DNA of 64,000 nt. Source: Paramacrobiotus metropolitanus. Its lineage: Eukaryota; Tardigrada; Eutardigrada; Parachela; Macrobiotidae. The notes beneath the pieces are model-generated. The model saw nothing but the letters and a program-made list of their open reading frames with translations, searched no databases and was not told the DNA's origin. Below, piece by piece: positions 12,719 through 59,250 of this stretch. The translations under genes were made by a program, and so were the position numbers. Positions within the stretch are counted from its first letter, which is position 1, and each line of letters opens with the position of its first letter. The stretch covers positions 4,420,720-4,484,719 of the forward strand of contig NW_026570221.1 of the NCBI RefSeq assembly GCF_019649055.1, read 5' to 3'.

Positions 12719-12744
12719 GTGACAAAATAAGTTAAGCTCAACAT

Positions 12745-13851: not shown

Positions 13852-13985
13852 GTATTTGAGGCCTTTCTACTTGTTTTCTCTACTAGATTTTAGCTGAGCA
13901 GCCTTTCTGGTTTTGTTTCGAGATACTTGGCATCAGCATACTAATATATAGCCCTTTATATTGAAAATCTTACTCTAAAAGGCAA

Positions 13986-14120
13986 CTGTAACCGGCAAAA
14001 CCGTCCGCCCCCGAATATACAGTCCGGCAAAACCGTCCGTCCCCGAACATGCACTCCGGCAATACCGTCCGCCTCGAATATGCACTCCGGCAAAACCGTC
14101 CGCCCCCGAATATGCACTCT
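13986..14120. repeat. 32-bp minisatellite in right arm, about 4 copies
   Basis: Unit GGCAAAACCGTCCGCCCCCG + AATATGCACTCC, 31-32 bp. The region 13,985-14,270 starts CTGTAACCGGCAAAA and ends TTTTGCCGGTTACAG, so it could also stand alone as a 285-bp inverted-repeat element. Confidence 0.85.
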
Positions 14121-14271
14121 GGGGCGTGCACAAGATCGAATAGAGCATAAAAACCTGGGTGGGCAAAATTTCCGGCGGACGTTTTCTTGGACCGCCGGAC
14201 GGTTTTGCCGGCTTACAGGCAAAAGCGTCCGGCGGACGGTTCATCCGTCCGGACGATTTTGCCGGTTACAG

Positions 14272-14615
14272 ACGTGACCTGTAGAGACACGATGGCGGAT
14301 TCGTACATCGACGCGACCTCAAAGTGCGCTGGCGCAGCTGCCGAACGGGCTTTCACTGAGAAGATGGGGAAGTATAAGTCTCTTACGGATCGCTGTTATT
14401 TTGTCCCAGTTGCATGCGAGACATTTGGAACTTTTTGTGAGGAAACAATTGTCTTGTTAAAGGAGATTGGTAAGAAATTGTTTATGAGGACCGGCGAGAT
14501 TCGTTCTACCTGTTTTTTGTTTCAACGTTTGAGCTTGGAAATAATGCGTGGCAATGCTATGAGTGTTTTGTGTACAGTCCCATCTCATGTTAATTGGGAC
14601 AAATTCTTTATTTGA
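14272..14615 (+). pseudogene. Non-LTR retrotransposon (LINE) ORF2 C-terminal fragment
   Basis: In frame: DVTCRDTMADSYI, then an Ala-rich helix, CYFVPVACETFGTF, then FLFQRLSLEIMRGNAMSVL and a stop. This matches the C-terminal tail after the reverse transcriptase in a class of invertebrate LINEs (typical end FLRQRIxxAIQRGNAASVLGT). The 5' end abuts the inverted-repeat element at 14,271, so the LINE is truncated or was the insertion target. A homologous fragment lies at 63.6 kb. Confidence 0.65.
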
Positions 14616-17700: not shown

Positions 17701-20700
17701 TAATATTTTGTTAATGAGTGAGGTTGCGCTTGCTTCGATGGTGGCTCAACGGTGGTTCTATGTGGTTCCATAGGTGCCAGTTCTTATTACACCTAGGTTG
17801 TTGAATCCTAATTGGTTCAGAACCAAGTGAACCACTCGTGTCCTGGTCTATAGGTTCATTCCCATAGAACCTCTAATGTCCTAACTTGGACATTCCATGT
17901 TGCTTTTCTGTAGACTAGTGTTTTTAACTCAAAATATAGAACGTCAGTGCTTCGGGCATTTTGAGAGTAAAAAAAATAGCGTTTTTCCAGATCGAACAGA
18001 TTCTAGGGTCAAATTTTATAAATGGTGCCCGCCGCAAAGCGTCCTATGCTGGATGCCCAACTGCCCATTTCGTCTTACTCTACTCATTTCCGCTTTCTGA
18101 ATGCCGCCTGCTTGATACGGCTTAATTACAGCGTACTTTTGTGCCGCTAGTAATTTGGTCGGGATTAACAACTAAGATCTTACTAATTTTATCCTTTCAG
18201 TAAGACAGTTATAGACATGGAAGCGCAGTAGAGACATGCATTTTCGCATTAATGTACTACTCAGACTAGATAAAGTTAGTGTGTTTTACTCACAAATCAA
18301 AATGAAACAATTGAAATGTAGCTGACTGGTGGCATGGTGCTGTGAGGCATCTTCAGCACATTTAAGATAATGTTGTGTTTCTACTTTCTACGTGGTAAAA
18401 CCCGACCACCAATCTCCTGACCTTTGCAGAAAAGTGGATACCCCTTACAAAAAGGTTGATGACTTTTAGAGAAAGGTTGAAAACGTCTGGCAGAAAGGTT
18501 GATGACCTTTAGAGAAAGGTTGACGACGTCTGGCAGAAAGGTTGATGACCTTTAGAAAAACGTTGACGACGTCTGGCAGAAAGGTTGATAACCTTTAGAG
18601 AAAGGTTGACGACGTCTGGCAGAAAGGTTGATGACCTTTAGAGAAAGGTTTACCACGTGGGGCAGGAAGGTTGATGACCTTTAGAGAAAGGTTGATGACC
18701 TTCATTGAGCATCAACCATCAACTCATCAACCTTCCTGCCGGCTACAATCGCCTGTCTGCTTCCTGTCGAGCAGTCAGACGAGCGATGGTATTATTAGCC
18801 GTCTAGCGGTCAAGTAAAGCTGACCGCCGTCTAAAGACGTAGGAAATTGGATTTTGGTAACCTGTTTTTTTTTTGTATTTTGTAAAAGTGTGCCGATATA
18901 TCGGTAAGGTGATCAATTTGGCATCCTGGAGCACTTCAAAATTCATTTGAAATTCATTTGTTTGTGGTAGGCCGAAGTCCGCTTCCTACCATTGTGGAAA
19001 GTATGCTACACCAGCTGAGGCCAGTTCTGGCATGATTAGATACTGTTTGTAAAACAAGTATATTTAAATATGTGTTTTTCCACTTTTTAAATCTTAGAAT
19101 TTAAAATGCATCTGTATAAACACTACTGTAGTGGATGCGATAAAGTAAAAAGTATGCTATCTGATAGCACTTTTACTTTTGACATAACTATGATCTTGTA
19201 ATTGGCAATTTACAGTAGTTAAAACTTAAAAATGAAGGTATTTTATGTAAGTAATTATTATAAATTAACCCCCTTAATTCAATATATACAGGTCAGTGAA
19301 TCTCTTTGGTATAAAAGTTTAAGAAATTAAATGTTCTTCACTCTCAAAATCGGAAAAAAGCATTTTTCAAGAAACATTTTTGGCAGTTTTGCCAAAGATG
19401 TTTGATGATAAATAAAAATCAATTGTTCCATCTAAAAATTAGCTGTGTACGCTTTTTTTCGCAAGTTTTCCTATGTTTTCTTAAAATTTTTTGTTTTTTT
19501 TATGTTTTCAGTGTCACCTATTTCCACCCTAATAATAAGTAGATTATCCATAATTGTTGATAAATGAATGTTCATCGCGTAGCGTCATGAAAGTCGATTA
19601 CTGTAACGAGCGAAATAAGTACTCATATAACGCAATGGAGTCTGTAAAAGGCACATGTTCCACCGGTTACTGATTCGAACAGTTACTTGCGTAAACTAAA
19701 CAGCAAAAATTAAAAACATCTTTCTAATTTTAAAGCTATTGCAAGCTGTTATTCGTTAACCCCATTTTCATTGTTTAAATTATGCTATTGTTTAAATTTT
19801 GACTGTAAAGCAATGTGTCCATGCTTATCCCTTGTGTTAATTCGATAACTATAGCCTAATCCTATTAAAGTAATTTCACTTTGATTTTCCTCAGTATATT
19901 GTTATAAAAAAGCTTCCTTTTTTCTTTGATACTTCATTTTATGGTACGTTATTAAAAATTCTTTTCGTCTTTTATTGAAAACTATTACTGCGCAAGCAGT
20001 GTGACTAGTTAAACGTTAAACTACCGTTTTCTTGTCATAATGGACCTTCGTTTCGCTTTGTTCAATTACAGGTGTATTGTACAATGTTATCGGGACCAAT
20101 TTGCTTTCGTAAAGTGCTACACGTACAAAGTAATCTTGGTACTGTGATAGTCCATGGCGAGGGGTACGGCTACCACAATCTACATCGCGTTGTAGTAGAA
20201 TTAATCAACCAAAATTGAAAAAACAGCTGTTATCGGAGGTGGCAAACTGGAAATGCTCAACCCACGGGGGTCGCGGGCTACCCGTACTAGCTGTGTTTAA
20301 TGCGGCTCACTGCAGCGTTTTTACAAAGGGATTTTTCGTTCGTCGTTTGACAGCTCAATTGTTGTAGTATTTACAGTTGTTACATATGTAGCTACTAGGA
20401 GTACCTAGACTGATCAGACGCTTACTTCGCGAGGGTAATTTAATTACGCAGCAGTTACTTTAAGAAATAACTTCAAAGAAGTTCATCTGTACCTGTATGA
20501 CGGGCACGCCGCTGTCCTCAAATATTTTAAAGGGCATGCGCTGAATTTCACTTTGCACAGCAGGATCAGAATATCCGCGTCCAATCAATCTTTTGGCATT
20601 GCGAATTGTACTGTTGGCTTTCTTGGGACTCTGCTTTTTGGCAGATTTTCCGACGACAGTAATCCCGTTCTCTTCGTAACGCACCCAGCTAGGCGTAGTG

Positions 20701-22493: not shown

Positions 22494-24374
22494 TCTACAT
22501 ATAATAATAACGCAGTCTGTTGCCACTCTGTTGACACACAGGTTGCAAAAGCTGCAGCAGGAATATGTTAGAAAAATTTGTTCTATTAACTAAAATTTAA
22601 TATGTCCACACCCTTATGTGCAGATATGTCTTGCATCTGCAGCTCGCACAAGATGGCAAGCAATCACAGGTTCGACTTTTCCGGTGTCCACAGAAAAAGA
22701 CAGTCGTTTTTGTTTCTGTTTTTTTAATCGTTATCGTTTGCTGGAAAACAGACCATGCTGCGAAAAATAATAAAAACTCGTTAAAATACACTGACTTTGG
22801 TAAACTCCAACCGAAATTTTCATTTTCTTACGTTCATGTTCATCTGCGTATTTCACGTCCACTGCTGGCCACCTCCCGGGCCGGCTGAAAGCAATTCGCG
22901 AACCGAAGTTCAGTGCTGTAATAAAACACATATTGCACACGTAAAGGGCATATTGCACTTTAATTTTGCTTTTTTGGAGGGCATACTACAGACTGATGCA
23001 GTAATGATAGCACCAATAATTAAAAAACTGAAACCATGCGGTGGTTTCACGACATCCTCTTAGTTGCAAAAAAAATTGCAGAAAAGCAGAATGAGAGAGT
23101 TAGTTAATTAAATGTTTATTAAACGTTACGAGGGGTTTTAATGCTGAGAAATAAAACATCAGAAATATTTACTTTTAATGGGAAACAGGGACCTGTCTGT
23201 ACTATACGTAATCACAACCATTTCTGCCAAAGTCCAAGCAGTCACAATATCCAGTTGATCCAAAAGCAGTCAATGGAGATTAAGGAGGACACATGAAAAC
23301 TTCCGGTCAGTACACCAATAGCATCGATTTCTGAAACTAGTTCTGTGGTTCCAGCAATTATGTGTTCAAACTCGGAGGTTCCACTGTATGTAATTTTCAT
23401 TTGCGCTGAACATGTGTCATCTTGCTGACCAGTCAAGTTACTCAGCGGCAGAGCTCTTGTCATGCTCTTATGCATATAAGCTACGCCAAGTCTCTGTGCA
23501 GTTTTTTGTGAATTTACTATTTGAGTAGAACTATACCATTCCTATTGGCGCAGTTCCCATACGTGCCATTCTGGCATCGTGGTGTCCTGCTTGGCCGATG
23601 GTCAGAAAAAATCCGCAAAAAACAATTTTTCTTAATTAAATTTTTTTGTCGAGGAATGCCAAATTCGTACTCCCAGTTTGGTATTGGGAGTAAATTAGTA
23701 CTCACTTTCTTTTCTGGTACCCGCTGTTGGTAAGATAACGCCTGTTTATATTATGTAACCGCAAATGACAGTCCGTTTCCTAATTTTTGGTTCAGAAGTG
23801 AAAACAAGGGGTATGGCTTATGCATAGCCTTACAGAGAATGAGAATGCTTCGTCTCTGTGCGTTCACATACATGCATGCGGATTAAAAATCACTGGGAAG
23901 TGGTAGTTCAGGAAGCCAAGTGCACATACGCCATACAACCACATGGCACATGCACTGCAGTAAGTCTGCTAATTAAATCTGCAGTACGGGCCCGGTTAGA
24001 ACAGAAGCGGCATTTAAAATAATGTAGAGGCATGGATGCTTTCCCATTTGGTTTTTCATTAACTAGTAGTACCACATGTGCCATACGGATGACACATTCA
24101 GGCTTCAGCAGCTCAAATGCTTCATTCGCCTTTTAATCGTGACACATTTTAGGGGCAAGAAAAACTTCTTTTATGCACAAGTACAATACTATTATTATAT
24201 GTTATATGCTTTGATCACATGAAATGAAAATGCATCAACTGCAGATACGTGTTGTGAATATTTTTTTCGATGTATGAAAACTTTATAACGTATAACTGCT
24301 GGCGTTTTGCCGCCAGCAGTACAGATGTTGCACGTTAAAGGTGAAAAAATGACTCTTAATGTTTGCAAGGAACA
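22494..24374. other. Intergenic, 5' flank of the second Hsp70-like gene
   Basis: Short open frames only, with no recognisable domains. A 90-codon plus-strand frame around 22,616-22,888 overlaps minus-strand frames and shows no family signal. No TATA box could be placed with confidence. Confidence 0.35.
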
Positions 24375-26078
24375 ATGAGGCTAGGAGTGGAAATTGGATA
24401 TAAAAGCATTTCAGTTGCTGTGTATGAAGGTGGGGTGCCTCGTCTAGTGGCCAGCCTAGCACCTGGTGTTGCCTACAGTCAGGACCGTGCCGAGTGGTAT
24501 TTTGGAACTGAATCTCGCAGCTACAGGCGGGATGAACGGTTTTTATATATTCCCACTGTTAAGCATATGTTGCTGGCCTACGGACGTGGAGGAAAGGAAG
24601 CTATATTTCCGCTACTGATGAAACAGCTATTTGGATACGTCAAACGAGTTGCTGAAAATGAAACGAAGCGCCAGCTACGAGGGGTTACCGTAGTATTGTC
24701 ACATGGCTTGCAACATAACAGCGGCATCTGCGACCTGATTGTGGAATCATGGATTCAGAACGGTATTAACGATGTGCTGTGCCTTGCTGATACGTCGGGA
24801 GTTCTTTTAAGTTTTATAGCTCAGACTGCCGATCGGCAGGAATTTTCCAAAAGCGGAGAAGAAAGCTTTAATTTGATAGTGTGCAATGCGAATTTTGATA
24901 ACTTTCAGATGGACGTCTTTGAAGTTGCCCACGATAATTTTCTCGTCAAATATCATAGTGATAAAAATATTGTGTGGGGATGTTTCAGTAAGTTGCGCCG
25001 TCAGCTACTAAATATGATCCATGGTCAACTTCAGCAGGCCGGCATGCGTCCGTTGAAAGACGCAAAGAAGCTGGACATTGAGGCTGAATGGGAAGAGCAA
25101 CTCACGCTGTTCAATGACCCTTTTACACAAAAGATATCCATTCCTGCTGCTTTTCAGGACATTGAAACCGTTATAACGAAAACCACGTATGATCAAGCAG
25201 CAGTCCATTGCATTGCTGAAATCACTTGCTGCATAAAGCGTGAGTTAATGAAATTTGGAATCATGGATGCGAAAACTCCAGCAAGCTTTGGGAAAATCGA
25301 AATTTTATTGGTCGGAGAAAGTTCGAGACTTTTACCACTCCGCAACGCTTTAGAAAGCATGTTTCAAAAACCTCTTAACTCGAGGATTCTGAGTTATGTC
25401 GACGACGCTGAATGCTTTGGAGCTGCCATAGCGAGCTACCTCACTGGCAATATAGAATATTCTAAAGAGAATCACCGTTTTTTTCGTCTACAGGAAGGCC
25501 TGGCGTTTAACACGCACAACATTTTCGGAGCTTTAACACCTGCCGCGAACAGCCAGATTAAGATGGAAGAAGCAGCAAGCGATATTTTTGTGAATGAAAG
25601 GAAATCCCTGGTTCTGTCGGGCACCTTGTACATGGGTAACATAAAGGATGCAGTTGCGTTGCCTGGATCCAGTCTTGTACTTTCTACGAAGTTAGCGGGC
25701 AGTAAACAACTTCACTACATTGAAATTGAATATAAATCAGCCCGGCAAGATATCGTCTTCATGCGACTTATAATTGCCAAAGACGTGCAACTTATATTTT
25801 GGAATTCCGCTCAAGCAAAAAGAAGTTTCCTGCAGTTTCAAACTTCTTTCACGAACAGCAGGAGCATGGCCTGGGCTACATTATATTTTAAGGCTGATCG
25901 GGCAGACGAATACAGACTTTTTCTTGACGATTACCAAATCCGCCTAGGAGAGATGGTGAATACGTTTCCCGACGCAGTTAACGGTAAGCCTGCATGCTGC
26001 AGCTTCAAGTCGAGCCTCTCTCTGGCCGTAAAACTATATTGCACCATACTTTTACTGACCAGACTTTTAGACTTTTAA
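24375..26078 (+). CDS. Highly diverged Hsp70-like protein, probable pseudo-ATPase
   Basis: Single long exon, 567 aa from the ATG at 24,375 (MRLGVEIG). The Hsp70/actin fold is recognisable by order: MRLGVEIGYKSISVAV replaces IDLGTT; VTVVLSHGLQHN replaces VITVPAxF; LIVCNANFDNFQMDVFEV replaces VFDLGGGTFDVSIL; IEILLVGESSRLLPLRNAL replaces the adenosine motif VGGSTRIPxVQ; ECFGAAIASYL replaces AxGAAxQA. The GGG of phosphate loop 2 and the TT of loop 1 are gone, so ATP hydrolysis looks lost. The C-terminal 200 residues sit where the substrate domain would be but are barely similar. A possible 87-bp intron (GTAAGC at 25,984 to TTTTAG at 26,070) is frame-neutral and would leave the same Asp-Phe-stop end. 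It is head-to-head with the orthodox Hsp70 gene 3.6 kb away. Confidence 0.7.
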   Translation: MRLGVEIGYKSISVAVYEGGVPRLVASLAPGVAYSQDRAEWYFGTESRSYRRDERFLYIPTVKHMLLAYGRGGKEAIFPLLMKQLFGYVKRVAENETKRQLRGVTVVLSHGLQHNSGICDLIVESWIQNGINDVLCLADTSGVLLSFIAQTADRQEFSKSGEESFNLIVCNANFDNFQMDVFEVAHDNFLVKYHSDKNIVWGCFSKLRRQLLNMIHGQLQQAGMRPLKDAKKLDIEAEWEEQLTLFNDPFTQKISIPAAFQDIETVITKTTYDQAAVHCIAEITCCIKRELMKFGIMDAKTPASFGKIEILLVGESSRLLPLRNALESMFQKPLNSRILSYVDDAECFGAAIASYLTGNIEYSKENHRFFRLQEGLAFNTHNIFGALTPAANSQIKMEEAASDIFVNERKSLVLSGTLYMGNIKDAVALPGSSLVLSTKLAGSKQLHYIEIEYKSARQDIVFMRLIIAKDVQLIFWNSAQAKRSFLQFQTSFTNSRSMAWATLYFKADRADEYRLFLDDYQIRLGEMVNTFPDAVNGKPACCSFKSSLSLAVKLYCTILLLTRLLDF

Positions 26079-32495: not shown

Positions 32496-32892
32496 TATGT
32501 GGAACGTTTCGTACCAAAGAAAAAAACTTGAACGCTTTTTTCCTTCTTGTCGTCACTGTAGTCATCTGTAGACTACCGGTAGACATCCTGTAGTCAACCT
32601 GTATACATCCTAAGAAACCAGGTGACTACAGTATGTCTACAGTGGTGTCTACGGGCTGTCTACAGTTAACTACCGGTGTATACTGTATACACGCAGAGTA
32701 TCAAGCTGAGCCTGAAAAGAGCTGCCTGTATACAGCGGCAGACATCCTGTAGACAACCTGTATACATCCTAAGAAACCAGGTGACTACCGATTGACTACA
32801 GGGTGTCTACAGCATGTATACAGATGTCTACTGTTCTACAAGGAGAGAAAAAACGATTTACTTTTTTTCTTTGGTAGGAAGCATGCCACAGG
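32496..32892. mobile_element. Non-autonomous TIR element (copy B)
   Basis: Ends GGAACGTTTCGTACCAAAG and CTTTGGTAGGAAGCATGCCA with TGTAGACA/TGTATACA-rich interior, as in copy A at 9.4 kb. It interrupts dispersed-repeat copy 1. Confidence 0.75.
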
Positions 32893-41410: not shown

Positions 41411-41634
41411 CCTACCACTTCCAGACTTGACCACGCGAAGCCGTCTCGGACGATGCAACGACCGAAGACAGCCCGGACAGTAATTTCCGGAATGCGCCCA
41501 CGAGCGCTGGGGGATATCAACAACCTTCGTAAGCACAAAGAATCCCAGTCGGTGTTGCTAAACTTGCATAGAATGTCCAATTTAGGACATTAAGTGGTTC
41601 TATGGGGATTAAACCAACAGACTAGGACACAACC

Positions 41635-42218
41635 ACCTCAACAAATAGAACCACATAGAACCACAATAGAACCCATAGAACCGCAATAGAACCTTCATAG
41701 AACCACAATGAAACCACGTGCAAAGTCACAAACCGGCGTACTCCCATACTAGCCCTCTTTTCTGGCGCCCATAGAACCACATAGAACCACCATAGAACCT
41801 CCATAGAACCACCATAAAACCTCCATAGAACCATCATAGATCCACAATGGAACCGGGTACAAACTCACGAACCGGCGTACTCGCATACTAGCCCTCTTTT
41901 CTGGCGCCCATAGAACCACATAGAACCACCATAGAACCTCCATAGAACCACCATAGAACCACAATGGAGCCACGTGCACAGTCACAACCCGGCATGGTGC
42001 CATACTAGCCCTATTTTCTGGCGCCCATAGAACCACATAGAACCACCATAGAACCTCCATAGAACCACCATAGAACCACAATGGAACCACGTGCAAAGTC
42101 ACAAACCGGCGTACTCCCATACTAGCCCTCTTTTCTGGCGCCCATAGAACCACATAGAACCACCATGGAACCTCCATAGAACCACCATAGAACCACCTAC
42201 ATAGTCACAAGCCGGCAA
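41635..42218. repeat. Minisatellite, left foldback arm
   Basis: Higher-order unit of about 120 bp: three to five CCATAGAACCAC/ACCTC words, then a spacer with AAACCGGCGTACTCCCATAC and CTCTTTTCTGGCGCC. About 4-5 units. Confidence 0.9.
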
Positions 42219-43075
42219 TGCCGGCTTTTGTCGCAAACCGTATACGGCATCACCGTATACGGTATACTGTACGGTCAAACCGTAAGGATCCGTATAAAAA
42301 ATGAGTTCGGTAACAAGATTACCGTACGTAACCGTATATAACCTGGTTACGGTAATACCGTAACCGGATAAAATGTTTCCTACGGTAAGTTACGGCATGG
42401 CGCTTTTTAAATGAAAAAGTAAACAACAGTTTAAATGAAGTTGGTACCGGACCTCCTGTTCACGTTTATCGCAACTTCACTCTTGCCTTAAACAAAACAA
42501 TTGCATGCTGTAATTCAGTTTCAGCGCTCGTCACAGTGACCATATGCAAATTGACATATAAGGTAACCGTGTTGCTGATTTCAATAGAAACGCTGCGGTT
42601 GTTGCATTTCGTAACTGGAAGCACTTCCTTCAATCCCCTTACGTACTAACGATCCTTAGTACTGTAGCCTGACCTCTCAGTTATTTTAATATCGAGATAT
42701 GGTACTTTCGACTGACGCTGTGACGCATCTTAAGCGCACAATGTTTTAACTCGGTATTCTGAGTTAAGTTGCTTGCAAGTGTAAAATATGTCGAAAGTTC
42801 GTTTGCCACGATTTCCGACGAGGAGGGGAACGAGAAATCGAAGGTAAATGGAAACGCGGGCGTTTAAACTTACTTAACTTAAACACTTAACTTGCAATTT
42901 AACTTAACTTAAAAATAAAGATGCGGTAGTTTACCGTACCGTAATGGGCTGGCAAACTTTTGTACCGTAACCGTACAGACGCAGAACATGGCTGCCGTAA
43001 GAGCACCGTAGGCCGTAAAACGCTACGGTAAAACCGTACGTAAAGAAAGTTTTGTACGGTTTGAGACCTCTTGCC
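42219..43075. mobile_element. Nested insertion with TGCCGGC ends and accGTAccGTA-rich interior
   Basis: Starts TGCCGGCTTTTGTCGCAAAC and ends ...TTTGAGACCTCTTGCCGGCA; inverse over about 24 bp with gaps. It interrupts the foldback left arm inside GCCGGCA, which is seen on both sides (candidate 7-bp duplication). The uninterrupted arrangement is preserved in the right arm at 46,727. Interior rich in CCGTAACCGTA words. Confidence 0.75.
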
Positions 43076-43117
43076 GGCATGCTTCCATACTAGTCCTCTT
43101 TTCTGGCGCCCACTATA

Positions 43118-44344
43118 TACAAGTCAGTTAATACAGCTTTTTTTAGCTTTATTTTGATTGTTTATTGTATCTTGTACGACGCTTCTGTCAATTAATATGA
43201 ATTTTCGACTCTTATTGTTAAAATAGTACCATGCCCAGACGGCCAGACGTGTCATTACCGACATGACATTTTCAAACGACCAGTATTGGCCAGTGAGCAA
43301 TAATTTTCGGAACTTTGCTTCATTTTTTTATAGATCTTAGCAATTTTTTATCCTGTGATTTTTTTAGTATATCTGATGTAGGGGTGGCTGTACAGATTAG
43401 CAAGACCTCCGGGATCCAAGTTTGGTCAGTTTTGATCATGTCTGGTCGCCCTCTGGACCTCCGGATATGGCCAAGCTTACGGTTATATATTTTAAACTGT
43501 CGTCTAAGTTAACTTCTTTGAAATAAAACCAACAGAAACGACATATGACTATAACAACGGAACACCGAAATGAGCGGTCACCGAACTGAGTGCTGGTTGA
43601 GCAGAGCGTGAGCCGAAATATTTCCGCCGATCCGCGTCCCCTCATTGTGTACCCTACCGTCCCTACGAGCTTTATATGACAACGTCAGCGATCACGTGTA
43701 CCTATGTGTATTTATGGTGATGGGCTAAGCAGCACCCATGTGACCGAGAACTTTATTGCGCAAACGCTTGTGCATCAGATCTACTCTATGACTCGGCAGC
43801 AAGACCGCTGCTAAATAACGGACTGACTGCTGGAGCCTGGAGGCGTAAAAGCTTTCTTATAATATAATTATGGGAATGGCCGGTTCAGGTTAAGCACTGA
43901 AAGCAGTACTTCCGTTGTGGCTAAAATAAAATATGACTGTCAAAATGACAGGAAGTGATGTAAAGCTTGTGTAATATGCTCTGTGTGAAATGCCAATGAG
44001 GTACCCGTCCGCTAGTAGAACATGAGAGTAGGAAGCATGTCGTGACTCCATCACAATAAACGTTAACCGAAATGATCGCATGCCGCCGAAATGTAACGCA
44101 GCCAACGTAATCGGACGCGTTTGTCAGAAATACTTTAGAATCCCATGAATTATTTTAGATATTTTATTGCTCTGCGTTTTGGAATGGTTTATAGGTTCTC
44201 CTAGAATTACTTATGCTACTTTAATCGTGTTTGAGAAGCTTATGTTACGTGACCCTCACAGTTAGAATGTCGTCAGTGAAAAGTCGGTTTCTATCAAACG
44301 CTGTTCGCCAAAACTGTTATTTGTCGGCTAGTCATTTACGTAAA
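43118..44344. other. Foldback interior, no gene recognised
   Basis: Unique-looking sequence without recognisable coding exons. Confidence 0.4.
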
Positions 44345-44560
44345 ACGCACCCGGACAATTGGGAGTGGGACATTTCGCCGCACACAAACTCGACGCGCGA
44401 CTTTTCGCCGCGACGGCATTTCGCCGCCGGACATTCGAACGCTTGGACACTTCGGCTCGAGACATCATGCTTTTAGACACTTCATCTTTGCGACATTTCG
44501 ACGCAAGACATCTGGTCGCGGACATTTCGTTTTGGGACTTTTCGAACGATGCGAACAATC
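44345..44560. repeat. Degenerate GGACATTTCGCCGC repeats
   Basis: Irregular 14-22 bp words (GGACATTTCG, CGACATTTCGACG, GGACACTTCGG). Inside the foldback element. Confidence 0.6.
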
Positions 44561-44599
44561 GCCGCAAAACCAAATCACCGGGCCTAATTCTCACTAGGT

Positions 44600-44795
44600 T
44601 TTCAGTTTTTTAGGCTTGTTCTTAGTTTTTCTTAGGTTTCTTAGGTTTCTTGGGTTTTTCTGGTTTCTTTAGTTTCTTTGGTTTCTTTGGTTTCTTTGGT
44701 TTCTTTGGTTTCTTAGGTTTCTTAGGTTTTTTTGGTTTCTTTGGTTTCTTTGGTTTCTTGGATTTCTTAGGTTTTTTTAGGTTTCTTAGTATAAC
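44600..44795. repeat. Low-complexity GGTTTCTTT array
   Basis: Tandem 9-10 bp units. Open frames through it (Pro-Lys-Lys on one strand, Gly-Phe-Phe on the other) are by-products. Confidence 0.9.
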
Positions 44796-45539
44796 CGTGG
44801 ACTGTGAAAGAGTCCAGGACGGAAGCCCAGACTGACAGGACTCCGTGTAGTGTAGAACGTGACGTTTTAAGGAAGAAATGCACAACGCACGATATCTAGT
44901 CTACGTTATACACTTTATTAGCGTTCTCGATCATGGATCAAAACACACTGACGTTCATCCCACTCAGAGAGCCAAATTCCATCTGCTCTCGACAACTCTA
45001 ATACACTGCGCAGCAGTGAACACAATGAACGGCAGTAGCCGACCAATCAGAGAAGCGCTGCGTCACAGACGGCAGTTCCCCACGGAGTGGTGCAACGAAG
45101 CACTCCCGTAGTGCCGGTAGCGTCACGAAGGTGGACGCAAGGGAGCCATCGCCTCACATTAGGTTTTCTTATGTTTCTTAGGTTATGTACTTATGGTTTA
45201 TTTGGCTTGTTAGGTTTTCGTATTTATTTTTAGATTGTTCTCACGTAATTTAAGATCTAAAGATTTCTTTTCATTTTTTTATGTTCTTCTTGGTGTCGTG
45301 CGGTTAACTCACCCGGGACGGTAGACTTCGTGTGATCGATCTTATGGCGGTCGACGAGGTGTTAATAAGAATACTTGGAAAAGAGAGACATGATGGTGCA
45401 TTGGTGATAATGGCACTTCCAAAATTGTTTGAAAACAGTTCGTGCAAGATGAAGTAGAAACAGAAAAAAAGTTCGTGCTAACAATATTTATTCAGATACT
45501 TTTACGCTGCAGGATAAAAGTTTAGGCAGGTCCTGTTTC

Positions 45540-46240
45540 CGCCGAAATGTACTTTGGCCGAAGTGAATTGCGGCCGAAGTGAGTGGCGGCCAAAAAAATT
45601 TGGCCGAAATGAGCGCGGCCGAAATGAAAACGGGCGAAATTATCGGTAGCCGACGAAATGTCCAAATCCTATTATTTTTGAAATTTATTTAAAAATCGAA
45701 AACAAGTGCCATGAATCAGATATAAGAAATCTCAAATGACATATGAATCTGTATGTTGGAAGCCATAGTCGCGACCGATTACTTCGGCCGCATGCGAGTT
45801 CTATTCAGCCGAGGTTCACTTTGGCCAGCACTAATTTCGGTCACCGCTTGTTTCAGCAACAAGACATTTGGCCATCTTAAATTTCCCAGGTTCTCCTAGT
45901 TTTCGTATGTTGCTTCGGTTTTCTTAGGCTTCTTACGTTCTTTTTCGTTTCTTGGCTTTCTTAGGTTTTTTTGATGACTTAGGTTTCTTAAGTCATTCTT
46001 AGGTACAGTAATTCAGAAGAAGTTCTTTTCAATCTTTTGTTAATCTTAAGTTATTCAAAAAGTTATGGTACCATCGAAACTTGGTTAAATCGAAAGTAAC
46101 GTTTTCTTGCTCAAATTCGACCAAAATAACGTCGGCCGAAATAAACTGCGGCCGAAGTTATCGTCGAAGTGAATGGTGTCCGAAAAATTTTGGCCGAAAT
46201 GAAATTGGCCGAAATGAAAACGGCCGAAGTGATCGGTACC
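45540..46240. repeat. Two blocks of GGCCGAAATGA words
   Basis: Blocks at about 45,540-45,660 and 46,110-46,240 share the word order GGCCGAAGT, CCGAAAwATTTTGGCCGAAA and GGCCGAAATGAAAACGG, so they are ancient direct copies of about 130 bp. Confidence 0.7.
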
Positions 46241-46729
46241 TAAAAACAGCGCACCCATGATACGAATCAAGTATCAAAAAAGGAGGTGAATGTTCATTTC
46301 CGCCCGTAACGCGACACAAGATAAAGTCGTTACTGCGAACATTGCGGTACAGCAATAAGAATTAAATTATTCTTTTAATAGAACAGTAACGAACCGAATT
46401 ATGTCTTGCTTGTGGCTGAATTACTACAAGCTAGCGGAAGTCTAAGCACCGAATGCAACGAAGTCAAATGCAATGAAGTCTAATGCAATCATAAAATCAG
46501 AGTAAAATTTAAAGAATAACTGATGAAAATTGTTTCGCGCGAAGCCCACGCATGGCTTTATAGTAAATTGTGGGCCCCCCGACAATTCGCTGAGGACAAT
46601 CTCTCGCCGTTTTTGACTTCTTTAGCAGAACTAACCAACATGTTACTATGTTTAGGGAAATCTGTTGCACAAACCTTCCCGCCGCAGGGGGGCAAGCCCA
46701 AGGAGTGTTTGTAGTGATAAAACTGAAGC

Positions 46730-47940
46730 ATGCCGGCTTGTGACTATGTACGTGGTTCCATTGTGGTTCTACGGTGGTTCTATAAAGGTTCTATGGTGAT
46801 TCTATGTGGTTCTATGGGCGCCAGAAAAGAGGGATAGTTTGGGAGCATGCCGGGTTGTGGTTCCATTGTGGTTCTATGGTGGTTCTATGGAGGTTCTATG
46901 GTGGTTCTATGTGGTTCTATGGGCGCCAGAAAAGAAGGCTAGTATGGCAGCATGCCGGGTTGTGACTGTGCACGTGGTTCCATTGTGGTTCTATGGTGGT
47001 TCTATGGAGGTTCTATGCTGGTTCTATGTGGTTCTATGGGCGCCTGAAAAGAGGGATAGTTTGGGAGCATGCCGGGTTGTGGTTCCATTGTGGTTCTATG
47101 GTGGTTCTATGGAGGTTCTATGGTGGTTCTATGTGGTTCTATGGGCGCCAGAAAAGAAGGCTAGTATGGCACCATGCCGGGTTGTGACTGTGCACGTGGT
47201 TCCATTGTGGTTCTATGGTGGTTCTATGGAGGTTCTATGGTGGTTCTATGTGGTTCTATGGGCGCCTGAAAAGAGGGATAGTTTGGGAGCATGCCGGGTT
47301 GTGGTTCCATTGTGGTTCTATGGTGGTTCTATGGAGGTTCTATGTGGTTCTATGGGCGCCAGAAAAGAAGGCTAGTATGGCACCATGCCGGGTTGTGACT
47401 GTGCACGTGGTTCCATTGTGGTTCTATGGTGGTTCTATGGAGGTTCTATGGTGGTTCTATGTGGTTCTATGGGCGCCTGAAAAGAGGATAGTTTGGGAGC
47501 ATGCCGGGTTGTGGTTCCATTGTGGTTCTATGGTGGTTCTATGGAGGTTCTATGGTGGTTCTATGTGGTTCTATGGGCATGAAAAGAAGGCTAGTATGGC
47601 ACCATGCCGGGTTGTGACTGTGCACGTGGTTCCATTGTGGTTCTATGGTGGTTCTATGGAGGTTCTATGGTGGTTCTATGTGGTTCTATGGGCGCCTGAA
47701 AAGAGGGATAGTTTGGGAGCATGCCGGGTTGTGGTTCCATTGTGGTTCTATGGTGGTTCTATGGAGGTTCTATGGTGGTTCTATGTGGTTCTATGGGCGC
47801 CTGAAAAGAGGGATAGTTTGGGAGCATGCCAGGTTGTGACTCTGCACGTGGTTCCATTGTGGTTTTACGGTGATTCTATGGAGGTTCTATGGTGGTTCCA
47901 TGTCCATAGAACCAGTAAGTCACTAATGTCCTAACTTGGA
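46730..47940. repeat. Minisatellite, right foldback arm
   Basis: Nine to ten higher-order units of 110-130 bp: GGTTCTATGGTGGTTCTATG words plus a spacer GGGCGCCAGAAAAGA, GCATGCCGGGTTGTG. Two spacer types alternate (with or without TGACTGTGCACGTGG), which shows expansion by two-unit blocks. Long open frames through the array follow from unit lengths divisible by 3. Confidence 0.95.
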
Positions 47941-47957
47941 CATTCTCTCTAAACTTG

Positions 47958-51756: not shown

Positions 51757-52639
51757 CGGGCGCCGCTAAGTGGTGACATCTGGAATATTATTGGAAAATT
51801 CAACGCGCCATGTATGGATCATGGAAGCCAGAATAAATTAATGTGGAGTTAGTGGAGTCTATTGTTTGCCGCAATAAAGCGCTGTGTCCTTAAGTATGTA
51901 CCTATGCCTCTGGAGGCCGTTTTATCCCATGGGTAAAATTCTATACGTATTTCTAAACAAGGGTTGGCTGCGCTGTCCTGTATTTTTTGGTGTAAAACTT
52001 TTACATAAGAATACTGATCTTTTTTATGTATTTATTTATTTATTGTGTTTTGTACTACATATCCATATTATATATTTATCAAAAAATGGTACTCCTCTCA
52101 GCTATGTACAAGACCTTATGCTTTGTAAGTGTGGATCGAAAATGAAACGAAAAGAATAAATGGTGTACTACAAATGTCGCGAATTTAGAATTTAGTATCC
52201 GGACTTTGCTTTATTCAGTTTGTAACCTTACGGATCGGCTTTGTGTTTCCTTCTGCATGTGTAGGTAAAAAACATTTTAGAACTGACTACTGACTAGATT
52301 TTTATAGAAATTATGTATGCCGGTTCTTGGCCAATTGGGCCACCGGAAGTTGCGCTTGCCGCAAACGAAGCGGACAATTACGCGATGACCGATTGTTAGC
52401 GGGAAAAAACGAAAAGTATTAAAGGCAAAAGTTCAACTGTACTGTGCAACTGGACAAATGAAGCGCTCACGAGAACGATCTATTATCAATTCAGTCTTTT
52501 TTCCCGAGAGTCGTGTTGTTCTCATCGACTGCTTTGTACGTACAGTGGCAATCGTATACCAGGCCATTTCAAACGGTCAATATGGATCGTTTTTCCCCAG
52601 AAATGGAGAGATGGCACGAGTTAGGGCATCACAATTGAA

Positions 52640-53390
52640 CCGTACCGACACTGTATCCTATTCGTATCCACGGTACCGGCACTGTATCCTATGCGTATCC
52701 ACTGTACCGACACTGTGTCCTATTCGTATCCACGGTACCGACACTGTATCCTATGCGTATCCACTGTACCGACACTGTGTCCTATGCGTATCCACTGTAC
52801 CGACACTGTATCCTATTCGTATCCACTGTACCGACAGTGTATCCTATGCGTATCCACTGTACCGACACTGTATCCTATTCGTATCCACTGTACCGACAGT
52901 GTATCCTATGTGTACCCATTGTACCGACACTGTATCCTATTCGTATCCACTGTAACGACACTGTATCCCGTGCGTACCCAATGTACCGACACTGTATCCA
53001 CTGTACCGACACTGTATCCACTGTACCGACACTGTAATCACTGTACCGACACTATATCCAATGTGTACCCACTGTACCGACACTGTATCCTATTCGTATC
53101 CACTGTAACGACACTGTATCCCGTGCGTACCCACGTACCGACACTGTATCCACTGTACCGACACTGTATCCACTGTACCGACACTGTAATCACTGTACCG
53201 ACACTATATCCAATGTGTACCCACTGTACCGACACTGTATCCTATTCGTATCCACTGTAACGACACTGTATCCCGTGCGTACCCAATGTACCGACACTGT
53301 ATCCACTGTACCGACACTGTATCCACTGTACCGACACTGTATCCACTGTACCGACACTGTATCCACTGTACTGATTTCAGTGTCAGTGCA
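52640..53390. repeat. Minisatellite, left arm of KDZ element
   Basis: Unit of 20 or 31 bp: TGTACCGACACTGTATCCAC, with or without the insert TATTCGTATCC/TATGCGTATCC. About 30 units; a block of about 160 bp is itself repeated (52.96-53.10, 53.10-53.27). Confidence 0.95.
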
Positions 53391-54247
53391 CTGATTTTTT
53401 GTGCCAATGTTCTGCATATATATGTATAGTATCTTGTGATTAAGTATCGTCCCCGAGTTGCTAAGGTCTTGAAACTGCATTCGGAAGCTGATAAATGAAG
53501 CAAATTTCCAAGCGCTTATAAATAAGTGTATTATTAGACTGTATGTAAGTATTAAGTGTCGCATTGCGCAAGGCAAACTAAGGTGACTGCAAAAGAGTTA
53601 TCATACGGAACACCTGCATAAGAAGTATCTGGCCATCAAGAACGTTTTCCTGTGGCACAAATCCCTGATGAAAAGGAAAACATCGTTTGCCAGTGATTCC
53701 GCGCTCTTGTCTGCCAGTTTATCATTCGTTCAGACGGAATGTTTCGGATGGTAAGTCACTGAATAACAAACTATATAAATTTTCAAATTGTATTTTCAGA
53801 CTATCAACAAGGCAAGCGATACAGGATAGGACGTAACCTACTGGCCAATACTCGGCAACTAAATAAATTAAAATTAGCGACTACTCTGTTCACAACCTTT
53901 TACTTTGTTTACTACATTTCGCACATCCTTTCAATCGTTTTCTTTATGTATATAGACACTACCGATCGCTTTGTTCACAGCCTTTCCTGAGTGATATCCA
54001 ATTAGTTACGTATTTGAATTTATATACCCATTTTCAATAATTTGGCGTTTATTAACGAGCCATTCTCAGTATAGCAAGCGCAGGTCTTTTTACAATTTTA
54101 ATCTTCCCAATACCGCTACGGATAGGAGCACGTAATTGACGCAATCAAGAGATCCGAAGCACAAATTTTATAGTTAGCTGCATGCAACAGTCCATACGTA
54201 ATTAATAAACACTAATCCAGAACATGTGATATCGAAAACCCACAATG
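53391..54247. other. Left interior of KDZ element, no gene seen
   Basis: 3' flank of the transposase gene. No coding exon is recognised. Confidence 0.4.
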
Positions 54248-55920
54248 CTATTCGTCTTCTGAGTCTGATAACTCTAATTCAACATTTTCCATGTTCTCTA
54301 GATAGGCATTTCTGCGCAGTATAAGGCGATGCAAAAAAAATAATTGTCTGTGCTTCGGCATTTTAAACAAAGCATGCCGAAATCGCCCCAGCCAGCTGAA
54401 AGTTTTCTCGCAGCTTTGAGTGTTTGTAGATGCTAAGTTGGGATATGCGTCGCTTATCTTCTGCGGATTGTAAGTGGTTTTGCACTCGTGACCAACATGA
54501 TTTCCAAGGTGAAACCGGTCGATGACCTTTGTCATTCCTTCCGTCCAAAGCTTGTTATACGGCTCCGGAAGTGGCAGGTCTTGCTGGGCGCCTTTCAGCT
54601 TATCAAGATGACACATGTTATCGTAAGCTAAGAAATATTTAGGCCAGTCCGGCTTTGGGACATTTTTTAGCGTAAGGTATTTCCAAGCCAATAAAATCAG
54701 GAATACTTGGGAAACCGATTCCGACCTTCAAAAACAACCTTTATTATGGGCTGTCACTATGCTTTTACTGACAGTTTGCTCTAATAAACTAGACAATCTT
54801 CATGCCCGTCGCACTGGAGCCCATTTTCGAAACTTACTTGTAGATTGGTGATAATAAATCAATATGACCGCCAGCACGAACTACAGCAAAGTAACCACGC
54901 GATCTGACAGGCTGCTTCTTCGGTTGTCCCAGGTTTTTTTGGCACGGAATACCATCGTCCATGCAGTTTTCGAAGACATCGTTTTGACTGGAGGTGGGAG
55001 GAACCATCCGGTTTGACTTCAGGCTTCTTATCAGCACACCGACGCCTGCGTCAACCAAAATTGTCAAAAGGCAATAAGTTAAAGTTATTAAATTTAGAAC
55101 GGAAAACCTTGCAGGTGCAAATCCTGAAACCGCCTATTATTTGGCAGTCCGCGTTCTGTAGCCAAAGCGTCATGTTGTTCGCAAAACAAGGATCCCAGCT
55201 TCCGAAGTGGTTGGTTCGTGCAAACATCAGGATAGTTAACTAATTTGATGTTGTCAACTGTATTCTAAAAAATTTCAGTCGAAGCTAGTTTTTAGTTAGT
55301 TTTCCTTCTTGTATCACAGTTGTTACTTACATCTTGGACCATGGCACAGATTGCGAAGTGATTGTTCCAGATTGCGTCAGCTGACCACACTACCCCACAT
55401 CCTTTGCTCTGACACAGTGAATTATGCGTATGAGGGTACAATGTTTCGCAACGTAGCGCTTCAAGTACGGGCAGGACTTCTTCCAAATTAAACTGATTGG
55501 AAAACCGAAAGTCCATCTGAAGCCTCCGCAGTTCTAGCTCAATTTCCTGTCGAATGAATACTTCTGATGCGTGCTTTCGCGAGAACCCTGAAAAAATATT
55601 TTACTGTAATGATGCTTTTCAGTAGTTTTTAAAGCAAATATACCATTTCTTCCAAACGCTTCGTTGTAAGTTTCCGAAAATCCTCGGTAGGTAGCGTGGC
55701 ACTGCAATCTGATACATGTTTGCTTATTACGCGGATAGAACAGCTAAATACAACGCACTTACATATTCTGCACAAAAAGCTGATACAATTTTTGCGTCCA
55801 GAATGTTTGCAACGAGACGCGAATAAGATCTTGAGGTTGTTGGTAAAAATGATATCTTCCACTGGCTCCGCAAGTTCCAGCGTCGTTGTGAGAATAAATT
55901 TCTTGAAATGGCAAATTAAG
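54248..55920 (-). CDS. KDZ (Kyakuja-Dileera-Zisupton) superfamily transposase, multi-exon
   Basis: A cut-and-paste transposase acting on the element's ends. Five 3' exons join perfectly in phase: 55644-55701 (CHATYRGFSETYNEAFG), 55331-55587 (FSRKHASEVFIRQEIELEL), 55108-55264 (NTVDNIKLVNYPDVC...GSLFCEQH), 54838-55045 (RMVPPTSSQND...SPIYK) and 54248-54725 (SESVSQVFLILLAWKYL). They give 385 codons with no stop. A 5' exon ending at 55,763 (VANILDAKIVSAFCAEY) fits in phase 0; the start is unresolved. Introns are 56-112 bp. Family hallmarks are Cys/His zinc ligands (CxxxxxxxxxSLFCEQH), YDNMCHLDKL holding a likely catalytic Asp, and TQSCEKTFSWLGRF holding the likely catalytic Glu, then an acidic tail. 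The family assignment is from memory of metazoan KDZ proteins. Confidence 0.75.
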
Positions 55921-55942
55921 TTACTTTTTCGCAGATGAAACC

Positions 55943-56695
55943 ATGGTTTTGGGTTCTTCAGCAAAAGAAACTGAACCGGATACTTCAGACGATGAAGGCG
56001 TAGATGGTACTGCTTCTGCGACGTTGCAGAACTCTGCAGATAATAAAGCCAGTCGGAAATCGGTAAGCAAGTTCAATGGTTGATTAATCGTTAAAATTTT
56101 TGTTTTGCAACATCTTACATTGATCAAGCAGATTAACCGGTACAGTTTTGAGTTTTTTGTACTTAGGACATTGTGAGAATATGCACTTCACAGCCCAGTG
56201 TACCCATATTCGGCACGGACAATTCTTCCAGAGAGGGCAACGGAGCGGACGGGGTTGATCCGATTCTCGAAGCGCTTAAGCCTATTATTACGTCAAATAG
56301 TGAGTTCTGCAATTGCAACTTGATAGCTTTGCGCTTCATCTACAAGTAAACGTTTTGCAGACAATTTGCCAAAAACTGCCGTGGCACTGGGAGAACGTTT
56401 TGCAAATCTGAGTGGAGAGCTTCTGCAAGATGCTTGCGCCAAATGTTATGAAAAAATTCCGCAGCTGGGATGTGCATCTGAATCTACTGCTGCAAGTTCT
56501 TCATTGTCCAATTTTTTTTCCTGTTCCACCTGTGGTTTGCACTTTCACGAGGCCTGCATTAATGTTCCATCAATGAACACGCGCCATGGGAAGAAGCAGC
56601 AAGTTCCAGCGGAGGGCGAGTGGAAGTGTCCATTTTGCGCAACGAACTCGCGTAAACGTGCTGCGAAGAACACCGGAGGCCCACGTAAAAAGTGA
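55943..56695 (+). CDS. PHD-finger protein encoded by the KDZ element, 195 aa, three exons
   Basis: Exons 55943-56062, 56167-56299 and 56361-56695 join in phase (TCG/GTAAGC; TTAG/GAC; ATA/GTGAGT; TTGCAG/AC) for 195 codons plus stop. The N-terminus MVLGSSAKETEPDTSDDEGV is acidic and disordered. The C-terminal half is a PHD-type zinc finger with CAKC, then C, FSCSTC, FHEAC and WKCPFC in Cys4-His-Cys3 order, followed by a basic tail (NSRKRAAKNTGGPRKK) that could bind DNA or act as a nuclear signal. PHD fingers usually read histone H3 tails, so a role in chromatin targeting is a reasonable inference. It is transcribed away from the transposase gene with almost no gap, which suggests a shared promoter or overlapping 5' ends. 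Confidence 0.75.
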
Positions 56696-56979
56696 ACACC
56701 CGTCGCTGTTGCTATTATGCAGTGTTTTAGCTCTTTATTTTAATATACGATAATTTAAAATGTGACCTTTAAACAGCCATTATGTTTAAAAGTATATATT
56801 TCGAACTGATTAGTGTTTTATTTATTAGACTGAAATATTCGCATTCAAACAAAATCTTTTGCTTAATTCAGACTTGGAATAGTCGTTATGTACTGAATGC
56901 AGTTTCGCCATGTTATGAATTTAATCGACATCCTTGCAAATGTTTGTTTCTCATTAAATCAGCACTGCAAAGGCACGAT

Positions 56980-57200
56980 ACAGTGGATACAGACTGGGTA
57001 CAATGTCGGCACAGCGGGTACAAGGCAGATACAGTGGATACAGATTGGGTACAATGTCGGTACAGCGGGTACAAGGCAGGTACAGTGGATACAGACTGGG
57101 TACAATGTCGGTACAGCGGGTACAAGGCAGATACAGTGGATACAGACTGGGTACAATGTCGGTACAGCGGGTACAAGGCAGATACAGTGGATACATATAG
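56980..57200. repeat. Minisatellite, right arm of KDZ element, 51-bp unit
   Basis: Four copies of GATACAGTGGATACAGACTG + GGTACAATGTCGGTACAGCG + GGTACAAGGCA. Its words are the inverse complement of the left-arm words, so the two arrays are in opposite orientation. Confidence 0.95.
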
Positions 57201-57247
57201 CTTACAGTAATTCATGGATATCACTTCAGTATCCAAGGATGCCCTAA

Positions 57248-59250
57248 TCGTTTTAATGTATTGGATACAATGCTAGTGTATCCAATGGGAATTTGGCAAG
57301 CCCAAATAGAGGTACTCTATGGAGAGCAGAAATGTCGCCTTCAGGCTTAAACCGCGAACCCTGTGTATATAGAGCTGGTGCAGAAGTGATACCGGCTGTG
57401 TACATTTTTTATTATTTTGCCATTTTATCACATGGTGCACAGAATTTTTAAAAAATGTTTATCTGAAAGTCGTCCTACTTTTGAACGCACCCTTCAGGAT
57501 GGTCCAGTCTTTTCAGTCCTGTAATTCAGAACGTTTTCTTTGCCAACCCTGAGACAGCTTTCAAGAAACAGAATACCCATACCCAACTCTAGGCTATCAG
57601 AAAATGTGTTTAGTTAACATAAGGCATTTTTAAAAAATGTATTTGATCAGCGTAACAACCTGGGTGGCGCGCCCTCTGTAATTTAAACCAGCGAAAAAAT
57701 ATTGTGTCCAGCAGTGATTTTTTCACCACAAAATAATATGTCAAAAAAACAATGCAAGAAGGCATAGAAGTACGCGAGAGTGAAAATTTCTGCGTTTGTG
57801 CTGTACCGGCACACTTTCTATATTAGAGCAATCAATGCAATGTAACAGCGCGCCTCACAATTGATAATGACAAAAATTAATTATTACAGTGTACATGGTA
57901 CTTGATTTACCTTATTGTTTTAACATATCTAATGGTAATAGCATAGTGAAGTTGTTTAATATCTGCAAAAATTCCCGATACTTCCGAAGTTTATTGCAAA
58001 TGTGCAATGTTATTTTGTTACATATCTGTATTATCTTGGCGCAAATGCGCCATCCACACCACCGGTATTACCACACAGTATCATGCTTGTTAAGTACCTG
58101 CAGTGTAACCAAAAATATAAGTATACAATACACAGCATTTAAACTTTAATTAGATGCAGACCCGGACCACCTTTAAAAGCAGATAAAATTTCGACTTTAG
58201 AAAATGCTGTGTAAGTATAATTAAGAATCATTGCAGGGCTGATTAATTAAACAGGCTCTTCTACAATATGATTTTGGAGGGCTTTGCGTCGACTTTGGAA
58301 ATACAATCTCTGAACGGGGTTGCTTTTTCGTTGCATATGCTGACATAGGCGGTGTATCGAGCATATTACGCCTCCGGAAGTTGTGACCGATTGGCCGTTT
58401 CAGCAGGGACAATGTACTACGGCAGCATCATGCTGTATTTAAAACTGATTAGTTTTGGTCAACACATCATTTTGTTTCAATACACCGCATTATGCATACA
58501 ATGCACCGCGAGCTCCACTGCTCCGATCATAAGGCATAAGCGGCGTCAGAAAAGGTTAATACTGCATAACAATTCCCCGTACATAATAAATACTGTTTTT
58601 CATGCATACACAGTGTTCTTACTCAGTGAACAATAAAATTAAACACCTTTCCCGTACTAACTCTATATACTTGTACCCGGCGTTAACAAGGGACGCCGTT
58701 AACAGGCAAAACAAGAATTAATCGAACCGATCAATCGGGGGAAAATTTTCTTTGCGGATAAAAAGGAGGTTGAAATATAATGTGCACGCAGGAAGCTGCA
58801 AGATGCTTACAAGCACCATGCAGCCATCTGCGTGCACATTTCTAGGAGGGGGGATGCCGAAATACAGCCGGATCCGCAATCGTGTAAGTTCCGGCACAGT
58901 AAAATAAATCCCGCAATTACAACAGCTGTCGCCATCCGATAACATTACGAAACTGCAGATCAGCAGTAGAATCTGGCGCGGATAACAGAATTATAGAGGG
59001 CTTATATATGTATATTACATTTTCTTATGATGCCATAAGTATGCGCATAATTTAACAAGGCGTCCGTCCCACAACGTTGTGGCAGGAAATGCGTGGCGGA
59101 CCTGCGGTTACCGACATGGCGAGAGAAACCCTGTACCGTATCCATGAAACGATGCTAAAGACAGTACTGTACGAAATCATAATAATTATGGAAGGAAGAC
59201 GTTTGTACATACAGTGTATAAGTACACTGTATGTACATTTTTAACGGTAG
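57248..59250. other. Intergenic, nothing recognised except a small hairpin
   Basis: Short frames only. A hairpin at about 58,780-58,841 has arms TGTGCACGCAGGAAGCTGCA and its approximate complement. Confidence 0.4.

Follow-up and report, generated by a model that had tools for sequence, protein, structure and literature searches.

The window analysed here is a stretch of 64,000 nucleotides from the tardigrade Paramacrobiotus metropolitanus (contig NW_026570221.1, positions 4,420,720 to 4,484,719 of the forward strand), and positions in it are counted from its first letter. Towards its right-hand end lies a transposable element (52606-57321, plus 5 bp) which is larger than the original prediction reported. 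The following parts can be distinguished from left to right: (i) a minisatellite arm; (ii) the minus-strand exons of a transposase; (iii) the junction of a deletion; (iv) three plus-strand exons ending in a PHD finger; and (v) a second minisatellite arm, inverted with respect to the first. The original prediction had described an apparently intact KDZ (Kyakuja-Dileera-Zisupton) transposon with its own divergent PHD-finger gene. According to the evidence presented below, the window copy very probably derives from a KDZ DNA transposon of two genes, the second a divergent ATPase-PHD partner, and has become non-autonomous through an internal deletion. Other copies are named by their contigs (the window lies on contig C1).

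Ends, target duplication and minisatellite arms

The ends of the element were delimited by means of sister copies and an empty site. In alignments with C97 at both ends, and with C74 at the right end, homology begins at GAGAGATGGCACGAG (52606) and ends at GGTACTCTATG (57321); the left end of C74 was then located by its motif and its duplication. The termini read 5'-GAGAG...CTATG-3', with a TTAGG-like motif at positions 16-20 from each end. Terminal inverted repeats (TIRs) are present, being short and imperfect in the window's family and clearer in the group of C58 and in a third family. The element is flanked by an exact 8-bp target-site duplication, CAGAAATG, at 52598-52605 and 57327-57334; an additional GAGAG (57322-57326, plus strand) separates the right terminus from the second copy of the duplication. 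The corresponding duplications are GGCTTCCC on both sides of C74 and AGCTTCTC in the case of C97. An empty site at C60:548028-548247, which is a related locus elsewhere in the genome and not an allelic one, aligns across the joined flanks with 78% identity over 421 columns; it holds the duplicated stretch once, not letter for letter, and lacks the GAGAG. The flanking sequence of the window copy is mildly repetitive, since four other places in the genome match it in part. The sister copies and the empty site together gave the ends and the 8-bp duplication, and the genome-wide search for further copies with the same boundaries, also proposed in the original prediction, yielded C74 and C97. The 10-bp TTAGGGCATC pair formerly taken as the termini was ruled out, as it sits inside the true ends given by C74, C97 and the empty site. 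The GAGAG after the right terminus CTATG is also found in C103, and these bases are the first five of the left terminus.

A scan for such ends with an exact 8-bp duplication, in which one mismatch in TTAGG was allowed, recovered seven elements in the window and seven loci, whereas 100 shuffled versions of the window yielded no element. Among the 13 elements with both ends delimited, an exact 8-bp duplication was found in 10 (the window copy being counted with its 5 extra bp), while that of C24 has one mismatch.

Just inside the ends lie the two arms. The left one (52642-53364, plus strand) consists of 23.5 copies of a 31-bp unit, and the right one (56970-57195, minus strand) of 4.4 copies of a 51-bp unit. 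The two arrays are some 70-75% complementary, and their best match scores 124 bits in inverted orientation versus 21 bits in direct orientation, which bears out the earlier claim of oppositely oriented tandem arrays near the ends. The inverted match exceeded the direct one in all 15 related elements tested, C44, C103 and C135 having been cut approximately (the right end of C44 was searched for and not located). The units differ between families, with short GGTTC-like motifs common to the second and third families. In C50 only the left array was found, and the sequence retrieved for C420 and C7:2284500-2308500 showed no long array. Elsewhere in the window, two more short minisatellite pairs (17283-18699 and 32556-32831), with units that look reverse-complementary by eye, are perhaps small non-autonomous elements.

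The transposase, its KDZ affiliation and the deletion

Four minus-strand exons (55587-55331, 55264-55108, 55045-54838 and 54725-54248) join in phase with GT-AG borders, in agreement with the original prediction. The first of them contains a residue that may be the first D of a DDE triad (SADAIW), and the last contains candidates for its second D (AYDNMC) and for its E (SCEKTF). Upstream lie an exon at 55644-55708 (minus strand), whose acceptor was picked by eye to continue the CxC5 frame of relatives, and the remnant of a CxC5 exon at 55763-55869 (minus strand), the CxxC part of which has been deleted together with everything upstream. A reading of the 5' exon in a frame ending AEY was dropped, since in C74 and C58 the frame of this exon that matches Pfam is a different one, that of CxC5; the exon chain is corrected at this point.

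When compared with the whole genome (169.8 Mb), the joined transposase gave at least 122 exon matches, with 102 of 131 candidates scored. The first 22 residues of the query came from the rejected frame; matches beginning before residue 30 were the window itself, C74 and a weak one in C103, which starts at residue 21 and contains three stops. The nearest copy among the matches listed is C74, whose last exon is 97% identical to that of the window. In an alignment of 11 loci, one of which (L035) does not cover the exon concerned, the putative catalytic residues were observed, among the rows aligned there, as follows: E in 10 of 10, the first D in 7 of 7 and the second D in 8 of 10, the two remaining rows being misaligned, probably across an intron.

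The affiliation of the transposase comes from its sisters. A transposase exon of C58 narrowly passes the cut-off of the KDZ family PF18758 (26.9 versus 26.6 bits), and the window counterpart of that exon is 67% identical to it. The loci C65, C129 and C515, all three matched by the window transposase, pass the same cut-off. Upstream exons of C74 (34.2 bits) and C58 (27.0) pass that of CxC5 (26.9). Because these sisters pass the KDZ and CxC5 cut-offs and the C58 exon is so similar, the transposase is, on sequence homology via sister elements, a member of the KDZ superfamily.

At 55870-55882 some 4.3 kb of C74 (131652-135944) are absent from the window copy. The deletion cuts through the cysteine cluster of CxC5 and has removed its CxxC part, the 5' exons of the transposase and the exons of the ATPase; hence "apparently intact" has to be withdrawn. 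The junction itself (annotated on the plus strand) is occupied by 13 nt of filler that reproduce positions 56599-56611 of the PHD exon exactly, a match expected by chance within the element about once in 7,000 by a simple reckoning. Copied filler at a deletion is a trace of aborted gap repair. The deletion may have arisen by such a repair after excision, an origin consistent with the match between the filler and the PHD exon. Having kept both ends and both arms, the window copy could presumably move only with proteins supplied by other copies.

A probable divergent ATPase-PHD gene in sister elements

On the plus strand of the window, three exons can be joined: 55935-56062, which encodes an acidic linker (its start was set by eye, and the ATG at 55943 is probably internal), 56167-56299, and 56361-56695, which contains the PHD finger and the stop. 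Together they encode 195 residues and match the Pfam model of the PHD finger (PF00628), whose zinc ligands are of the C4HC3 type, with 24.1 bits (cut-off 24). In fuller copies, a gene on the strand of the PHD exons, and thus opposite to the transposase, lies between the transposase and those exons; it encodes a P-loop ATPase with a Walker A and a P-x-x-x-HD motif. Both motifs occur in all eight rows aligned, the latter being invariant, while the second Walker A glycine is replaced in three of the eight. In C58, seven exons lead from the ATPase core to the PHD finger through six GT-AG joins in a single open frame. The linker exons of C74 are in phase only if one donor is moved one base on, by eye, and this copy has an in-frame stop, a frameshift and a broken PHD finger.

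Because the ATPase and PHD exons of C58 join in one open frame, the 195-residue PHD gene of the window is probably, on sequence grounds, the C-terminal remnant of a larger ATPase-PHD gene; the three exons and their PHD match stand as first described, while their status as a self-standing gene was not confirmed. That the element is intact and that its PHD exons form a complete gene of their own would be suggested by the ATG at 55943, the open frame of 195 residues and the open 3' exons of the transposase. Nevertheless, that reading is very unlikely: C74 holds 4.3 kb more in the middle, which refutes intactness, the CxC5 exon is cut at the junction, and the PHD exons continue in phase from upstream in C58 and, with the one donor set by eye, in C74.

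A more serious alternative is that the ATPase and the PHD finger belong to two neighbouring same-strand genes, in which case the element would have three genes. In its favour, the exon joins were drawn from the genomic sequence, a start codon lies near the PHD exons of the window, and the distance from the ATPase core to the finger varies from about 2 to 7 kb among lineages. In C58, instead, all six GT-AG joins keep one frame, which, on a simple estimate, would happen by chance about once in 700 cases, though with sites chosen by the analyst. Two separate genes are thus unlikely, without being implausible, and a single ATPase-PHD gene is preferred.

A genome search with the ATPase gave 54 matches, which were grouped into 30 loci. 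A transposase lies within 15 kb at 21 of them and is divergent from the ATPase at every one of the 21. For this count each ATPase locus was represented by a single match, and 56 of the 122 matches to the transposase were used; on the contigs of the nine unpaired loci, none of the 122 lies nearer than 15 kb. At 18 of the 30 loci a PHD-type finger follows the ATPase on its own strand (that of C137 by similarity and not by motif), a count that leaves out C186, C63, C216, C9:1092508 and C11. As a control, the wider PHD motif was run on 850,038 shuffled bases and on 11 pieces of sequence expected to be free of it, and matched neither; in the window it matched twice more, each time within a repeated gene pair distinct from the element. 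The fingers of C92 (29.4), C9 (27.9), C335 (31.0), C7 (31.0) and C22 (24.4) pass the Pfam PHD cut-off. In those of C92, C56, C150 and C335 (L036, L045, L046 and L049) a tryptophan precedes Y-H, at an H3K4me3-cage position; this tryptophan is absent from the fingers of the window and C58.

The elements that carry these genes fall into several families. The group of C58, C130, C138, C103 and C137, of about 9.2-11 kb, has main aligned blocks 94.5-99.6% identical to C58, the termini GAGAG...CTATG of the window, and arms with an 84-bp unit. The end of the third family, AGAATGTCCAAGTTAGGACATTA, occurs at 55 sites in the genome (the reversed control pattern at none), and its members C22, C43, C24 and C135 have arm units of 105-118 bp. 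The end signature (GAGAG or CATAG, with TTAGG at 16-20 and one mismatch allowed) was also sought in 12 pieces from C32 and other lineages, where it gave a single hit, which is taken as chance because it lies away from any array; as far as seen, the signature marks the window's clade.

Separate occurrence of arms and genes, which the original prediction named as a refuting outcome, gave a mixed picture: transposase, ATPase, PHD finger and arms were found together in many elements, while in some the arms occur without the genes, for instance in C97, which retains part of the PHD gene only, and in a second KDZ-type element of the window. The latter (41567-47949) has ends CATAG.../...CTCTC with a TTAGG-like motif at 16-20, and is flanked on either side by the duplication TAAACTTG. 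Its inverted arms occupy 41644-42196 and 46729-47903, and nothing inside it resembles transposase, ATPase or PHD convincingly. Two KDZ elements at C9:864813-891429 are oriented so that the ATPase-PHD side of each is turned towards the other.

Estimates of nonsynonymous and synonymous divergence (dN/dS) were obtained for few, short pairs that are not independent. For the PHD finger, the values were: 0.226/1.54 for C58-C32 (a few non-coding codons included), 0.232/1.41 for C130-C32, 0.013/0.068 for C58-C130, 0.061/0.48 for C92-C56, 0.052/0.42 for C150-C56, 0.008/0.034 for C92-C150 and 0.018/0.19 for C9-C38. The ratio is thus 0.09-0.25 in seven of nine pairs. The last exon of the transposase gave 0.008/0.155 for window-C74 (ratio 0.05, one pair; saturated against C58), and the ATPase 0.036/1.36 for C58-C32 (ratio 0.03, one pair). 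Judging from these substitutions, transposase, ATPase and PHD finger all seem to have been maintained, the signal being weaker in one PHD pair.

These data bear on the idea that the PHD finger and the ATPase are host genes captured by chance beside KDZ copies. PHD fingers are common as host domains, and the window does hold two other PHD-like genes. Even so, the order and orientation of the genes are kept in lineages whose transposase exons are 37-43% identical to those of the window, and the PHD dN/dS is mostly well below 1; chance capture is therefore highly improbable. The two PHD-like genes lie on the minus strand near 10559 and 12330, in a region (8467-14275) where inverted repeats of 84 and 37 nt surround them together with minisatellites. 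With 19.5, the gene near 12330 does not reach the PHD cut-off. Similar pairs of genes occur in C252, C84 and C58:166331-168589, and the region is perhaps a different transposon. Two Hsp70-like open reading frames (ORFs) were also recognised by eye from the translations at 15277-16506 and 24363-26078.

Several results, beside the fact that the exon joins were drawn from the genomic sequence, weigh against a deleted KDZ element with an ATPase-PHD partner. With regard to the transposase, the joined protein of the window matches no Pfam family, so that, taken literally, it has no KDZ similarity of its own, and the affiliation claimed in the original prediction stands through relatives (the C58 exon, and CxC5 in C74 and C58). 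When exons of five relatives were compared with the KDZ profile, C58 passed, C7 (18.1) fell below the cut-off, and C43, C420 and C50 gave no match. C103 and C135 have no matching duplication. With regard to the pairing, nine of the 30 ATPase loci have no transposase within 15 kb; searches over at least 4 kb at C121, C7:2291075 and the C9 locus on the plus strand, and over about 2 kb at C41, C110, C301 and C65, gave no PHD finger. The fingers of C58 (21.8) and C32 (22.4) score below the PHD cut-off and that of C50 has no PHD match; in these three the C1 (C1_1) model outscores PHD, with 26.0, 25.1 and 19.1 respectively, all below its own cut-off of 26.5. The PHD pair C171-C7 gave 0.063/0.14 (ratio 0.45), and C50-C420 was saturated. 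As for the ATPase, no Pfam family exceeded its cut-off and searches of PHROGs likewise gave no family. Matches in the Protein Data Bank cover mainly the P-loop (the best, to Midasin, with E 0.00091), the P-loop match to TniB is weak (E 0.013; 15.4 bits, cut-off 22.4), and a family-level profile match to AAA+ or SF3 was not obtained; the protein is consequently filed as a P-loop ATPase only. ATP hydrolysis in the window's clade is doubtful, as judged from the motif, because the second Walker A glycine is a tryptophan there (TWKS, TWKT or SWKT; L001, L003, L015, L016, L028 and L030), as opposed to GK in other lineages.

Known transposition systems and possible mechanism

From the sister copies, the fuller element would comprise two genes: (i) that of a KDZ transposase, which has the CxC5 zinc cluster and a DDE-like triad; and (ii) on the other strand, that of a P-loop ATPase, the exons of which continue in phase into C-terminal PHD exons. 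Around them would lie the inverted minisatellite arms, then the inverted ends, which are short and in many cases imperfect, and target duplications of 8 bp. The comparison with described systems that follows draws on partial texts of the sources cited. The transposase domain and CxC cluster of the sisters are those of KDZ elements. Duplications of 8 bp are reported for a Dileera element (PMC12730594) and for Cryptococcus KDZ1, of about 11 kb and with CxC1 (PMC12810828), and the transposase of Pristionchus Zisupton is multi-exon, with no duplications detected (PMC9297572); the element described here resembles the first two in its duplications and the third in its exons. Kyakuja families have 7-bp duplications and no TIRs (PMC12730594). 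A divergent ATPase-PHD gene and minisatellite arms go unmentioned in the portions available of PMC12730594, PMC12810828 and PMC9297572. The fungal TET+ KDZ elements carry a TET/JBP chromatin or DNA-mark gene (PMC12730594); their cargo is a dioxygenase, whereas here it is an ATPase with a histone-reader-type finger.

The combination of PHD finger and minisatellite recalls Rehavkus, in which, according to the excerpted description, the PHD is inside the transposase, duplications are of 9 bp, there is one ORF and a minisatellite precedes the 3' TIR (PMC6446971). Identity with a Rehavkus/MULE type was rejected and has next to no probability: duplications are here 8 bp and not 9 bp, the PHD finger is outside the transposase in a separate, divergent gene on the opposite strand, arrays stand at both ends, and the sisters match KDZ and CxC5.

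Two other systems pair a recombinase with a second protein. In the RAG1/RAG2 type that protein bears a PHD finger, and the PHD of RAG2 binds H3K4me3, amphioxus protoRAG being without it (PMC8355894, in part); here the transposase belongs to another family, going by the Pfam matches of the sisters, and the PHD partner is an ATPase. In IS21 (IstA/IstB), Tn7 (TnsB/TnsC) and Mu, a transposase works with an AAA+ ATPase which regulates site selectivity and catalysis (PMC11208146, in part). The likeness lies in the pairing of a transposase with a P-loop ATPase gene; the difference is that those systems are bacterial, and the only link found to them is the weak TniB match.

None of the titles and abstract openings of the top-ranked literature matches described KDZ elements with arms of this kind or with a gene for an ATPase or a PHD finger, which does not establish absence from print, the founding KDZ papers being outside this scope. 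Relative to those matches, the new feature is the combination, in one KDZ element, of two inverted minisatellite arms with a divergent ATPase-PHD gene, while KDZ elements with chromatin-related cargo and the joint presence of PHD and minisatellite in Rehavkus were already known.

As to mechanism, the transposase would bind the ends, and perhaps the arrayed repeats too, and would move the element by cut and paste, while the ATPase-PHD protein would help to choose or prepare the chromatin target. More tentatively, by analogy, the system might be a eukaryotic counterpart of the bacterial transposase-plus-ATPase systems, with the ATPase fused to a chromatin reader: the PHD finger would read a histone mark, the ATPase would assemble on or remodel the target, and the arm-bound KDZ transposase would insert the element there. 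Since the PHD varies between lineages, different KDZ families could then be tuned to different chromatin. In IS21, Tn7 and Mu a dedicated ATPase governs the choice of target; if a cut-and-paste transposon of a eukaryote has an ATPase gene joined to a chromatin reader, how such elements select chromatin becomes a question open to direct test. The inverted minisatellite arms are, besides, a source for dispersed minisatellites in this genome, and the existence of several diverged families built on one plan, with different PHD fingers and arm repeats, amounts to a natural experiment on both parts.

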